Source: Lyngbya sp. HA4199-MV5 (GTDB lineage Bacteria > Cyanobacteriota > Cyanobacteriia > Leptolyngbyales > Leptolyngbyaceae). Taken from it: 64,000 bases of DNA. The position numbers and the translations under genes are program-made. Where the stretch lies: positions 1 to 64,000 of the forward strand of contig JAHHHL010000016.1 in NCBI GenBank assembly GCA_019359375.1, in the 5' to 3' direction. A model generated the notes under the pieces. That model was not told where the DNA came from. It did no database searches and was given only the letters and a program-made list of their open reading frames with translations. Below, piece after piece: positions 1,464 to 56,831 of the stretch (its first letter is position 1; every line of letters begins with the position of its first letter).

Positions 1464-1592
1464 TCACCCATCCAATGGACTTTTCACACCTCGCCCACCT
1501 CGATTGATGACGTGGATATACACCATTGTCGTCTTGACATCTTTATGCCCCAGCAATTCCTGCACCGTGCAAATATCGTAACCATCTTCTAG
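1464..1592 (-). pseudogene. intI: integron integrase (IntI), C-terminal remnant
   Basis: Read on the minus strand from CTA at 1590-1592 to TGA at 1464-1466, the frame encodes [28 protein letters not shown] and then [13 protein letters not shown]. This is the C-terminus of an integron-type tyrosine recombinase. LGH carries the late catalytic His region, MVYIHV carries the Tyr nucleophile, and the GGxGVxSPLD ending is typical of IntI. The N-terminal part (roughly 280 residues in intact members) is missing. Just upstream (1593-1620) the sequence still hints at the FRHSFATHL segment but contains a stop and small deletions. Orientation is classic: the integrase points away from the cassette array, which begins to the right. 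The remnant cannot be catalytic. Confidence 0.85.
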
Positions 1593-1727
1593 CCTGCATT
1601 ATTCATGACGACTTTGGAAAAGCTCGGAAAGACCTGCTATGAAGTCAACCTGGCGATTTGCCTAAAAAACAGTCTTTTTTGAGGTGTCTCTGCCATCAAC
1701 GTTCCAGCAGTTGGTGAATAATCCAGG

Positions 1728-1857
1728 CTAGGGCGCATTATCAATCCAGCTTGAAAGCTTGTGGTATCAGCATTGTCGCGCTCGTCCCAACAAACAAGCT
1801 AGGGGCTGAAACCCTTGCTGCAAGTGGTGTGTAGTCGTAATTGACGACAGCCCCTAG
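1728..1857. repeat. MITE-like repeat, copy A
   Basis: A 130-bp non-coding element seen again at 28760-28889 and 42133-42263, and in deleted form at 37574-37656. It starts CTAGGGCGCATTATCAAT and ends TTGACGACAGCCCCTAG, so its ends are imperfect inverted repeats. Internally CTAGGGGCTG (1799-1808) pairs perfectly with CAGCCCCTAG (1848-1857). This copy abuts a truncated purE start, so insertion here may have broken that gene. Confidence 0.75.
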
Positions 1858-1935
1858 TGGCTGAGCGATCGCGTCCTGCATGGTGGGCAAATCTGAATCA
1901 CTGCCCATAATAATACCGATGGGAGGAGAAGTCAT
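1858..1935 (-). pseudogene. purE: purE 5' fragment (N5-CAIR mutase), truncated
   Basis: The first residues, MTSPPIGIIMGSDSDLP followed by TMQDAIA, match the N-terminus of PurE, which interconverts carboxyaminoimidazole ribonucleotides in purine synthesis. GSDSD is the nucleotide-binding signature. The similarity stops near position 1864, where the frame reads into the adjacent MITE-like repeat. The rest of PurE (about 140 residues) is not found nearby on either strand. A functional copy must exist elsewhere in the genome. The fragment could be a leftover of a duplication or rearrangement. Confidence 0.7.
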
Positions 1936-2422
1936 AGAAAGGCTAAAGGATAAAGGCTAGGTTTTGAGTTAATTAGGACTAACGCAAAGATCTTGGACTT
2001 CTACGATGGGATCGGCTTTTATGGCTAAATTTTAACCAAAAGTCGAGGATCTAAACACTTTGCCTAAAACCTTGTAACAGAGTCAAGCGAGAATTCGGGT
2101 GCAGCTATCGGCGGCTCACCGCGATCGCACCGTAGTCTGTATGTCACTACCTTTCCGCGAGGAGGACGAAAATACAGCACCCTTTAGTACTTTGCTTGTC
2201 TCCATAGGAAATATGAAAATATACGAAACGATCCTGTTTATCCACTCTCAGGAGCGTATTGTGCAGAAGAATTCTACCTAAACACCAAATTTGGGGTGTT
2301 ATGCCGAATCATTCTGCCTATCCACCCACTATGGGATCTTAGGCGGAACCTTTCCGCCTACTAATAGTTGAGCTGCCTTGTATTAACTGTTAGCGCTTGG
2401 GAACACTACAGAGTAACCGGCA
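1936..2422. other. spacer between purE fragment and first attC
   Basis: No convincing gene is present. Two small palindromes stand out: AACACC/GGTGTT around 2281-2300, and AGGCGGAA-CCT-TTCCGCCT at 2341-2359. The string TTGGGGTG at 2291 is complementary to the R'' core of the first attC, so an older gene-less cassette may start here. In an intact integron the attI site and the missing integrase 5' half would lie in this stretch. Neither can be recognised. Confidence 0.5.
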
Positions 2423-2508
2423 CCCCAACTCTACGTTGGAGCCGACGAACACCGTTAGCCCGACGACGCGATCTAAGCGGCGTTCGCGGCTCAACTTCGT
2501 TGTTCGAC
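2423..2508 (+). other. integron attC site 1
   Basis: The canonical attC layout is visible: R'' CCCCAAC (2423-2429), a 5-nt spacer, then GTT-G-GAGCCG (2435-2444). On the other arm CGGCTC-AAC (2487-2495) is followed by a 6-nt spacer and R' GTTCGAC (2502-2508). The inner arms pair perfectly except for one extrahelical G at 2438, the feature that orients attC recombination. R'' and R' differ in sequence, as expected when R' belongs to the next cassette: it matches the GTCGAAC core at 3418 exactly. Confidence 0.85.
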
Positions 2509-2612
2509 TGCTTTAAGTTATCGGTGAGGACTGTGGCTAAAACTTGTCTGCCCGATTTTAAAGCCCTGGACATCAAGTATCTTTGATAAGACAGTTTATC
2601 TAGACCATCTTC

Positions 2613-3443
2613 ATGTTGTTTGATTTTCATCTCTGCCCGCTAGAAGAAGTGAAACCGTGGGGCAAGCCTCCTGATTTGAGCTTGTCGTGGTTCGGTTTCA
2701 CAGAAGGTTTTTACCGCTTACAGGTCGGTTTAGAGTTCTTGCTGAATTATTCTGACGAAATGGTTAATTATTGGGCTAAACAATTTCCTAGCGTCTACGG
2801 TGGCTCGTTTGTTGATTATTACGTAGTGCGGCTGTGGGAAGATCTTCTCGATATGCTTTCTGATGTGCTTGAGCCGATGCCAAGTAAGCTTTCCAGCTTT
2901 TTTGAGAAAGACCAAAAAGCTTGGTTTCAGTGGGAGAGCGATTTATTAAATTGGGTCGATAATCAACCTGATGAAGATAAAGCATTAGAGATGTTTGAAC
3001 TTGCAGTCTCGTGGCAACGTGTTCGCCGCCTGGATGCCGCCTATCTTCAAAACTCACCTAGAATCTGGATATGGTCTACGGAAGAATCGGTCATCATCAG
3101 TTGGGACAACACAGACATTGTATTGGAAGGTATTCAAGTTTGGTCAGCAACACAAGGGCACTACTATATCAAGCGAGATAAGTTTTTGGATGAAGTTCGT
3201 GCCTTTCACAATAAGCTAATGAGTGAGATGGCTGAGCGTGTCGAAAGTGTTTGCGCTCATTGGTGTCGGACAGAAATCCATGTAGACACTGGACATCTGA
3301 GACATGAGCAACAAGACCGAAAAAGGTGGCTTGATCTCGCTCTGAAAAAGTCACCCTCTGTAGACTGGGACGATGTGCTGGCTGCCACTAAAATGATGTC
3401 GGCTAATATGCCAAGCAGTCGAACACTACGTTGGAGCGGATAG
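2613..3443 (+). CDS. cassette-borne DUF5984-like protein
   Basis: A 276-residue soluble protein encoded in the first complete integron cassette (2503-3497). It begins MLFDFHLCPLEEVKPWG, followed by the aromatic-rich stretch LSLSWFGFTEGFY. This resembles the DUF5984 family, whose function is unknown to me. No signal peptide, membrane segment or catalytic motif is visible. The stop codon (TAG at 3441-3443) lies inside attC site 2, so the last seven residues, ending RTLRWSG, are encoded by the recombination site. This overlap is common in gene cassettes. A long leader (110 bp) separates the cassette start from the ATG, so the gene may carry its own promoter. Base use is less HIP1-rich than its neighbours, consistent with acquired DNA. 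Confidence 0.75.
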   Translation: MLFDFHLCPLEEVKPWGKPPDLSLSWFGFTEGFYRLQVGLEFLLNYSDEMVNYWAKQFPSVYGGSFVDYYVVRLWEDLLDMLSDVLEPMPSKLSSFFEKDQKAWFQWESDLLNWVDNQPDEDKALEMFELAVSWQRVRRLDAAYLQNSPRIWIWSTEESVIISWDNTDIVLEGIQVWSATQGHYYIKRDKFLDEVRAFHNKLMSEMAERVESVCAHWCRTEIHVDTGHLRHEQQDRKRWLDLALKKSPSVDWDDVLAATKMMSANMPSSRTLRWSG

Positions 3444-3504
3444 CATAAAGATCTCGGTGTTGAGTTTAGAGTGATCTGCTACCGCTCAACTCTGCCGTTA
3501 TGCC
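3418..3504 (+). other. integron attC site 2
   Basis: R'' GTCGAAC (3418-3424), 5-nt spacer ACTAC, GTT-G-GAGCGG (3430-3439), central region, CCGCTC-AAC (3482-3490), 6-nt spacer TCTGCC, R' GTTATGCC (3497-3504). The inner arms pair perfectly around an extrahelical G at 3433, exactly as in site 1. R'' matches the R' at the left end of its own cassette (2502-2508). R' matches the R'' of site 3. These are the boundary rules of integron cassettes. Confidence 0.88.
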
Positions 3505-3538
3505 GCAGGGCACCAGTAGTGTGGAGGAGTGTGGAGGA

Positions 3539-3853
3539 ATGAAGTTCCCTATCAGTATCAGATTGCTCAATGTACTTGGCGGTACTTTATTTGCTTGTGG
3601 TTCTTTGTTGTTTATACAGTCCGTTGTAGTAGCCGTAGGAAATCAGGTACAAGCTACTGTAAATACAGCATCGCTTATAGTAGCTGGCAATACACCAGGT
3701 CGTCTTACTCCAAGCGACATCAAGGAGAGATCGGCTCTTTCAAAGGAAATGGTGAATCTCTCAGCAGATATGTTTTCGCAGCAACAATTGTTCTTCGCTC
3801 AAGCTGTAATAGGGACTGGACTTGTATGTCTGCGTGAAAAAAGCCGTGAGTAG
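3539..3853 (+). CDS. small two-helix membrane protein in cassette 2
   Basis: A 104-residue protein. The ATG at 3539 is chosen because GTGGAGGA lies directly upstream as a strong ribosome binding site. Residues about 8-35 (LLNVLGGTLFACGSLLFIQS and onward) form one hydrophobic segment. A second, weaker segment near the C-terminus contains AQAVIGTGLVCL. The part between is polar and probably faces one side of the membrane. I recognise no family. It is the first gene of the second cassette, starting about 40 bp after the cassette boundary, which is the usual position for a cassette gene. Confidence 0.65.
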   Translation: MKFPISIRLLNVLGGTLFACGSLLFIQSVVVAVGNQVQATVNTASLIVAGNTPGRLTPSDIKERSALSKEMVNLSADMFSQQQLFFAQAVIGTGLVCLREKSRE

Positions 3854-3899
3854 TTTGTGTTGAGGCATCATGGGTAAAGCATAGTAGTATAAACATCCC

Positions 3900-4670
3900 A
3901 TGTATGACGACACTTGTCGGTTCCTTGCCGAGCACTTCTCCGCCGACTTTGCCAGTTGGCTGCTCGGAGAGCCTGTCACCCTGACAGAACTCCAACCCTC
4001 CGAACTCTCCCTCGACCCGATTCGAGCCGATGCCCTGATTTTCCTGGAATCGGACAAAGCCATTTTGCATATCGAGTTTCAAACACTCCCCAAAGAAAAT
4101 ATTCCGTTCCGTGTGCTGGATTACCGTGTCCGAGGTTATCGAAGAGATCCGACCAAACCAATGCGACAGGTCGTGATTTACCTGAAGCAGACCGGATCGG
4201 CGTTGGTTTACCAAACCAGCTTTACGATGGAACGCACTCACCATGAGTTTGAAGTGATTCGCCTGTGGGAGCAACCTGCATCACTCTTCCTGCAATACCC
4301 TGGGCTGATTCCTTTTGCGGTTCTGGGTCAAAGTGCGGATGCAGAGGAAACCTTGCGCCAAGCCGCTCAAAGGGTGGAGCAGATTGCAGACCCCGCGACG
4401 CAAGCGAATCTGATGGCAGCATCAGGGATTTTAGCTGGGTTAAAATTAGAAGACGAGATTATTTATCGCATACTACGGAGAGATATCATGCAGGAGTCTA
4501 CTGTTTATCGCTCTATTCAGAGAGAGGCTCAAGAAGAAAAAGCACGGACGATCGCCCTCAACCTGCTGCGGGGAGGCGTAAACATAAATCTCATTGCGTC
4601 TTCAACAGGTTTATCGATCGAGGAAGTCCAACAGCTTCAGCAACAGGTAGATAATCCTTCACAAAGTTGA
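3900..4670 (+). CDS. Rpn-family recombination-promoting nuclease / putative transposase
   Basis: A 256-residue protein of the PD-(D/E)XK superfamily. RADALIFLESDKAILHIEFQ near residues 42-62 supplies the active-site Asp and the ExQ element. A YRVRGYRRDP stretch follows. The C-terminal part, from LLRGGVNINLIASSTGLSIE, is a short regulator-like helical tail typical of the cyanobacterial Rpn/DUF4351-like group. Length is normal. Rpn proteins cut DNA and promote RecA-independent recombination in E. coli; here that is by family only. It is the second gene in cassette 2, ending 37 bp before attC site 3, and has an AT-rich leader that could hold a promoter. Confidence 0.8.
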   Translation: MYDDTCRFLAEHFSADFASWLLGEPVTLTELQPSELSLDPIRADALIFLESDKAILHIEFQTLPKENIPFRVLDYRVRGYRRDPTKPMRQVVIYLKQTGSALVYQTSFTMERTHHEFEVIRLWEQPASLFLQYPGLIPFAVLGQSADAEETLRQAAQRVEQIADPATQANLMAASGILAGLKLEDEIIYRILRRDIMQESTVYRSIQREAQEEKARTIALNLLRGGVNINLIASSTGLSIEEVQQLQQQVDNPSQS

Positions 4671-4707
4671 GTGGATCGATCCGACGGGAAGCTACTCGTG
4701 AAGACAC

Positions 4708-4797
4708 GGCATAACAATCCCGTTGCACACCGACCGTATGAAGTTGGTTGCTGAGTTCAAGAGGTTACTAGCGGCGGGTGAACGGGGTCGTTATGCC
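4708..4797 (+). other. integron attC site 3
   Basis: The outer cores GGCATAAC (4708-4715) and GTTATGCC (4790-4797) are perfectly complementary. Inside them GTT-G-CAC-A-CCG (4722-4732) pairs with CGG-GTG-AAC (4775-4783), leaving G4725 and A4729 extrahelical. The unpaired central loop is about 42 nt. The total length of 90 nt fits the attC range. The R'' core equals the start of cassette 2 (TTATGCC at 3498), so this site closes that cassette. I found no further attC to the right. Confidence 0.88.
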
Positions 4798-4827
4798 GCG
4801 ATCGGCACGGCTATTTCTGTTGATGCT

Positions 4828-42132: not shown

Positions 42133-42263
42133 TTAGGGCGCGTCATCAATTAGCTCCAAAACCTTGCGGTATCAGCATGGTCGCGCCCACCCAAACACAC
42201 CAGGCTAGGGGCTGGAATCCTTGCTAAGAGCCATGTGTAATTGTAATTGATGACAGCCCCTAG
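42133..42263. repeat. MITE-like repeat, copy C
   Basis: A full-length copy. The ends are TTAGGGCGCGTCATCAATTA and TAATTGATGACAGCCCCTAG, nearly complementary. The internal CTAGGGGCTG (42205-42214) pairs with the terminal CAGCCCCTAG (42254-42263). Confidence 0.8.
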
Positions 42264-56399: not shown

Positions 56400-56831
56400 A
56401 CGCCTAATAAGTGAATCGGGGAGCCTATGGATATAGACTCCCCGATTCGATCAAAGATTAAGGCTCCCCGCAACGCCGTCTTACCTCAGTTTTTGACCTG
56501 GTAAAAACCAGGTGGGTACCTCATGCCATGACTTAAAGTTTCCGGGTACAAGCCCGGTCTACTGCCGTCTGGCGATCGATTCCCGTTTGAACAGAGCATA
56601 GTCAAAAAACGTTATTGGCAGTCACCAACGCCGCAGTTGAACCTCTCACCATTTTAGCGGTTGAATCGACAAACCGCCCGTGAACGGTGACAGATCCCCG
56701 ATTTTTTGAAAAAGTAGGGGCTTAGCAGTCGGACAACGGTTTTTATGATGACTAGAGATTATCTGCCGACCGCTCAGCCCCCACAAGGGTAATCTCTTTC
56801 TCAAAAATTCCCTCAAGGCGAAGTCTTGCAG
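56400..56831. ncRNA. structured non-coding block, possibly a TnpB-type element remnant
   Basis: Several strong stems lie in 430 bp without a gene. GAATCGGGGAG/CTCCCCGATTC is at 56413-56448. ACCTGG-TAAAA-CCAGGT is near 56499. CCGGGTACAAGCCCGG is near 56549. A long stem at 56717-56781 pairs GGGGCT-AGC-GTCGG with CCGAC-GCT-AGCCCC, with two mismatches. AGAGATTA (56754-56761) could also pair with TAATCTCT (56790-56797), giving a pseudoknot. Read on the minus strand, the order of hairpins is reminiscent of the scaffold beside IS200/IS605 or IS607 tnpB genes, but no tnpB is present. Identification is tentative. Confidence 0.35.

Follow-up and report, generated by a model that had tools for sequence, protein, structure and literature searches.

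For clusters of attC sites lacking an integrase (CALINs), the usual criterion of closeness is a spacing of 4 kb between the attC sites. The locus considered here, at the left end of a 64,000-nt stretch of the genome of Lyngbya sp. HA4199-MV5 (the window in the following), is such a cluster; it comprises an attI region, three gene cassettes and, further to the left, the stump of an integrase gene (intI). In the excerpted text of a study on Xanthomonas, two attC sites are the threshold for a CALIN, and the CALINs of this genus are described together with a lineage-specific decay of intI and as mobilisable in trans (PMC12444791). As far as these excerpts go, the window resembles the Xanthomonas CALINs in its attC array without a working adjacent integrase, in the complete integrase encoded elsewhere, as in some Xanthomonas genomes, and in the lineage-specific inactivation of intI. 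It differs from them in that its first cassette is identical to copies in the complete array of the same genome, and it may also differ in keeping a recognisable attI. Off-target insertion, loss of intI and rearrangement are given as possible routes to CALINs in excerpts of PMC8618304. The sequence-only reading of this DNA had stated that integrons are little described in cyanobacteria. This did not hold up, since the phylum is listed among integron hosts in PMC8618304 and PMC2426708 and a dedicated cyanobacterial attC model is found in PMC8352920 and PMC9176274, each in the excerpts available. With the cyanobacterial chromosomal integrons, as excerpted there, the window shares the IntI family, the attC type and the phylum. 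Among open-access titles and abstract openings, we found no paper on the arrays described here, on attI regions without an integrase gene (orphan attIs) or on the gene-less cassette discussed below.

The window represents the first 64,000 nt of contig C93, its base 1 being the contig start, in an assembly of 6.9 Mb in 95 contigs whose relatives are cyanobacterial. We propose, with a probability of roughly 0.85, that the locus is a decayed chromosomal integron which lost its own intI before the split from the congener G002, received the intI stump by a later rearrangement and was served in trans by the IntI encoded on contig C8. The proposal builds on the homology of the attI region, the attC sites, the cassette boundaries, the identity of a cassette shared with C8, the complete IntI elsewhere in the genome and a junction found in the congener. 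Taken by itself, the array is a CALIN of the ordinary kind in which the attI has been preserved; relics like it are numerous in these genomes.

The attI region (2200–2367, plus strand, crossover G at 2367) has no integrase of its own and was recognised by homology to the DNA between intI and the first cassette in relatives. Positions 2200–2370 are ~73–74% identical over their whole length to the intI-adjacent DNA of three loci (L109, L020 and L021), find such DNA also in a fourth (L116) and are 81% identical over 114 bp to C8. An attI lying between the place of the integrase and the first cassette marks the locus as a relic integron. A CALIN could also arise at a site where no integron ever stood, by off-target insertion of cassettes through an integrase encoded elsewhere; the genome does contain a complete IntI, and single attC-model matches are scattered across many of its contigs. 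However, the array starts at an attI that can be recognised as such, together with DNA of the kind that normally adjoins intI, which renders such an origin highly improbable for the window.

Three attC sites follow on the plus strand within 2.4 kb, namely attC 1 at 2419–2511 (59.8 bits, E 1.1e-12), attC 2 at 3414–3506 (71.4 bits, E 1.2e-15) and attC 3 at 4705–4799 (57.5 bits, E 4.3e-12). The scores are those of a covariance model, R1, which was trained on 11 attC sites from contig C8 and zero window sequence; its training alignment has a consensus of 16 pairs, 10 of which are retained despite changes on both sides. One training row shares an identical core with attC 1, so that this site is no independent test, while the other two sites are. 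Over the 64-kb window at E ≤ 1, the only further R1 match is attC 1 read on the opposite strand (22.2 bits). The sequence-only reading had placed all three sites correctly, and the R″/R′ boxes, spacers and L boxes are visible by eye as it described them. Also by eye, cassettes 2 and 3 each begin with a stretch complementary to their R″; in cassette 1 this pairing has two mismatches. The window sites fit R1 and show the R″/R′ and L″/L′ arms, spacers and extrahelical base that define an attC, the compensatory change being that seen among the C8 sites. With more than the two close attC sites of one orientation that a CALIN needs, and a 43-aa stump as the only integrase at the locus, its assignment to the CALINs is likewise justified.

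Simpler tools gave a different picture, and on their results one could hold the sites for chance palindromes. In a crude home-made scan for R″/L″/L′/R′ palindromes the window attCs did not rise above chance: attC 3 scored highest in the window with 17.5, yet two of six shuffled sequences equalled 17.5, and attC 1 and attC 2 remained outside the top 12. The minimum-energy fold is the attC hairpin for attC 3 alone; attC 1 and attC 2 fold differently. For these two reasons the covariance model was used instead. Given its E-values of 4e-12 to 1e-15, the absence of any other site from the 64 kb and the complementarity of R″ to the respective cassette starts, a chance origin of the sites is hardly conceivable. 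On ten other intI loci R1 found array-side attCs in nine (L019, L020, L021, L022, L025, L026, L055, L066 and L083), the tenth, L024, with only 354 nt there, giving no match. Of the five cassette attCs expected in a class 1 array (L186) it recovered two; it found no site in a Pseudoalteromonas array (L185), where two long candidates similar to Vibrio cholerae repeats are unsuited to the model.

Crossover Gs were assigned by eye at 2367, 2502, 3497 and 4790. Neither the cassette boundaries given by them nor the attI at 2200–2367 nor the complete integron on C8 had been reported in the sequence-only reading. Cassette 1 (2368–2502, plus strand) is a mini-cassette of 135 bp with no plausible gene and with a conserved motif at ~2385–2413. 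Cassette 2 (2503–3497, plus strand) contains an open reading frame (ORF) at 2613–3443 for a DUF5984 protein (235 bits). Two ORFs are found in cassette 3 (3498–4790, plus strand): 3500–3853 (117 aa) has no Pfam or NCBIfam match, and 3900–4670 encodes an Rpn family nuclease/putative transposase (TIGR01784, 71.5 bits, cut-off 52.1).

Five full copies of cassette 1 are present on C8, and each matches it over 138 bp with 100% identity. This identity does not continue past the next crossover GTT, and between the surrounding attIs it is ~80%. This points to movement of the cassette between the arrays and is the pattern expected from IntI-mediated exchange. Given that the two arrays have the same cassette 1 letter for letter but attIs that diverge by ~20%, the C8 IntI would most likely have inserted or exchanged the 135-bp first cassette in trans, in an array that may still be a usable substrate. 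Within C8, four of the five copies of the cassette are not first in the array.

The complete IntI on C8 (61761–62699, 320 aa) scores 475.6 bits with the integron integrase model TIGR02249 (length 315, cut-off 265 bits). The intact intI next to an attI, which characterises a complete integron, is found at this locus and not in the window. The sequence-only reading described the array as lacking an integrase and suggested searching the genome for a complete one. Its description is right for the window locus, but not for the genome, which encodes the C8 IntI and has 40 R1 matches at E ≤ 0.001: 15 on C8, 3 on C93 and 22 elsewhere, mostly single, with two each on C33 and C41 as candidate CALINs. 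On C8, 13 of the 15 lie on the array side of intI. The two behind intI belong to a second, integrase-less attI array of two cassettes ~4 kb away (L018, 5336–6960). Orphan attI-like regions are located at C8:66793–66887 and C58:13991–14101. The latter (L152, 5980–6140) is followed, as judged by eye, by an apparent methyltransferase ORF and half an attC; R1 gave no match in L152. Cassettes of the C8 array (L017) encode an AHJR-like nuclease/HEPN protein, a phospholipase-A2-like protein, a weakly matching methyltransferase and a TPR protein with a weak AAA ATPase match beside it.

A near relative of the C8 IntI, 94.4% identical, is annotated on plasmid pB of Kovacikia minuta, a member of the Leptolyngbyaceae (NZ_CP083584.1, L180). 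As on C8, R1 finds attC sites on the array side of this intI, five in number. In contrast to C8, pB is an annotated plasmid, and between the 41 kb of pB and the 34 kb of C8 that were compared, similarity at E ≤ 1e-10 is confined to the intI/attI stretch and two attC-like pieces. The plasmid is an example of an integron on a cyanobacterial plasmid; a MobV relaxase is annotated on it and it is typed as non-mobilizable.

The stump to the left of the array is the C-terminus of an IntI on the minus strand, as the sequence-only reading had recognised. Its frame has 43 residues up to the stop (1464–1595); positions 1467–1595 correspond to positions 272–314 of the 315 of TIGR02249 (E 2.6e-16, 61.9 bits against the cut-off of 265) and read through the LLGH and the TTM-Y region before the stop. 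The 43-aa peptide scores 65.8 bits with TIGR02249, compared with 32.7 for XerC and 31.1 for XerD, so a better match to tyrosine recombinases outside the integrons is not seen. The order and orientation of a minus-strand stump, an attI and plus-strand attCs are typical of an integron, and stump and array could represent one integron whose integrase was cut in place to its last 43 codons, as the sequence-only reading assumed. But the stump is separated from the attI by ~630 bp that hold a copy of a dispersed ~130-bp repeat (1728–1858) and then a 5′ fragment of purE, its first ~26 codons (1861–1938, minus strand), and the congener G002 has the junction of purE and attI with an intact purE and neither stump nor intI. 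We therefore regard a truncation in place as unlikely: the stump is not colinear with the attI and is probably not the array's own integrase. What stands of the earlier claim is the integron remnant itself, with attI, three attCs and the matching orientation; what the purE fragment, the repeat and the G002 junction argue against is the truncation.

In all five congeners examined (L150, L151, L153, L154 and L155), the purE 5′ DNA adjoins polA. The window array lies beside polA. The window has a purE 5′ fragment near polA, and the complete purE is on another contig, C4 (L179, 6426–7043). Since purE and polA are neighbours in the congeners and the complete purE is here on a different contig, a rearrangement probably occurred at the purE/polA region of the window. 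G002 shares the window's junction of purE upstream sequence and attI with 84.6% identity over 1939–2215 and 91.8% over 2200–2370; it has an intact purE, and the DNA from there to the attI showed no integrase. From these comparisons, the window platform most likely lost intI before the split from G002, and the stump arrived with the later rearrangement. The attI (2200–2367) and the three cassettes with complete attCs would be what is left of an integron at the purE–polA site. With the loss of its own integrase before the split, the attI would have come to lie beside the purE upstream sequence. At the dispersed repeat, a later rearrangement may then have placed an unrelated intI 3′ stump and an insertion sequence to the left.

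This insertion sequence, presumably an IS630-like element, spans 271–1417 on the minus strand. It has a frame-broken transposase (ORFs 782–1351 and 283–909, with DDE_3 and HTH_23/HTH_32 matches) and matching inverted ends. It ends ~45 bp before the stop codon of the stump and did not itself cut the stump. The ~130-bp repeat was found by a repeat search of the genome at no fewer than 40 further places, mostly 83–92% identical, with 40 of 342 candidates scored, and probably resembles a miniature inverted-repeat transposable element. A second copy in the window, at 42134–42263, is 79% alike. Elsewhere in the window, a 6S RNA is located at 56461–56642 (Rfam RF00013, 83.2 bits).

Across the family, loss of the integrase seems to be widespread. 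Among the 58 genomes searched as relatives, our own included, 31 have an IntI above the cut-off. Searching 42 genomes of the family with the attI core gave matches in 24 of them, and the 97 rows merge to 95 places, 91 of them in genomes covered by the integrase search (integrase matches listed to E ~2.6e-8, family rows picked by hand). No listed TIGR02249 match lies within 600 bp at 81 of these attI-like places, and ten have one; the ratio is rough, as many of the 91 are short partial matches, several at contig ends, the window itself is among the 81 and the query attI is itself an orphan. Thirty attI loci were fetched, and those excluded were four that contain an integrase or a long part of it, a duplicate and a locus of insufficient length. 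Of the remaining 24 orphan attIs, seven keep a match to the first codons of IntI where its distance from the attI would place it (each with p < 0.05, against ~1.2 expected), and five of these matches exceed all 1260 null windows. Of the two positive controls, L269 worked and L258 failed, the orientation of its best attI match to intI differing from the one assumed. At the level of sequence comparison, the orphan attIs with their first-codon fossils support integrase loss as one source of CALINs.

Several points weigh against our proposal, in addition to the roughness of the attI count. No intI fossil was detected beside the attI of the window (score 20, p 0.9) or of G002 (p 0.48), and the loss of intI at the window is therefore seen by comparison only. 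Among IntIs, those of G002 and Tildeniella are nearest to the stump (88% of 42 aa), so that one original integron is still compatible with it. As C93 starts at window base 1, the left side with insertion sequence and stump could contain an assembly error. Homologous recombination between the arrays, or a shared donor, could also explain the identical cassette 1.

The gene-less cassette extends beyond this genome. A search of 388 genomes of the class matched the 135-bp unit in 21, in some of them only through its attC half, and its relatives in other cyanobacteria share a motif of ~25 nt. The motif pattern GTTANNNCTTGGGAANMCT gave 40 matches in 23 of the 388 genomes, the reversed pattern 7. The position of the cassette was judged from 29 hand-picked cassette starts, some from one genome and with the seeds of the attI profile (L026, L108 and L195) excluded. 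An attI-type box stands directly upstream in 14 of them (p < 0.01) and not in the other 15; one start directly follows the end of an attC, and L218 and L235, both of one genome, have an attC at a distance of 275 and 138 nt upstream, hence these are not first. The mini-cassette's own attC was recognised in 23 of the 29. An enrichment at the first position is suggestive only. Among 109 intI loci (L019–L127), of which ~20 hold less than 300 nt beside intI and some are not cyanobacterial, the motif was found beside intI at the expected place in two, L026 and L108. A match in L120 scores 15.6 bits, a value that shuffled sequence also reaches (maximum 18.7), and C8 and L195, the latter with a partial intI, are further cases outside the 109. 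The gene-less cassette is rare at intact integrons. Ten of 30 fetched motif loci had neither an attC match nor a mini-cassette, and eight of the ten look like chance. In L212 and L239, from one genus, the motif occurs without an attC match. A possible membrane-protein ORF begins in L212 ~30 nt downstream of the motif (~1496–1525), an arrangement that hints at a role of the motif in expression.

Other readings of the cassette were considered. An extended hairpin of its own was rejected: the complementarity score between cassette start and R″ averages 10.0 in 16 mini-cassettes, compared with 10.2 in ten ordinary cassettes, and that it exceeds swapped partners within the minis (0 of 10000 permutations) applies to the R arms of any attC. 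As the stem is no longer than ordinary, only the ~25-nt loop motif is distinctive. RNAalifold returned 0 pairs on a 21-row, badly gapped alignment, and six mini-cassette or motif loci had no Rfam family match. A coding reading of the motif found no support by eye, some copies having in-frame stops.

Gene-less cassettes with promoter activity are described, in the excerpts available, from Vibrio superintegrons (PMC11014356) and, as ORF-less cassettes, from oral metagenomes (PMC6557892). As far as these excerpts go, cassette 1 resembles them in having no gene, in its attC and in its place within arrays. In contrast to them, a ~25-nt motif is conserved in the cyanobacterial unit across genera, and about half of the cases tested have the unit immediately at an attI box; the promoter activity of the unit is only putative, a sigma-70 scan of 2150–2650 giving no match. 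A search of the open-access literature found no study of cyanobacterial integron expression. A putative promoter or leader is our leading guess for the gene-less cassette. As a tentative and on balance doubtful generalisation, a conserved gene-less cassette (~135 bp, core close to AAMTGTTAGYGCTTGGGAACMCTATAG) may be common to cyanobacterial integrons as their first cassette; it would be inserted at attI, copied inside an array as well as from one array to another, and retained in integrase-dead platforms as the promoter or leader of the array. Taken together with the many orphan attIs, each genome would then have one IntI acting in trans on a set of dispersed platforms that lack an integrase.

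In conclusion, the integron array of the window is of a known type, and its value lies in the evidence of the orphan attIs on the formation of CALINs and in the conserved gene-less cassette. The orphan attIs and the IntI first-codon fossils of the family would be direct evidence for the loss route to CALINs, and the identical cassette would be a natural trace of traffic between a complete and an integrase-less integron. The conserved gene-less cassette is a defined, testable element.

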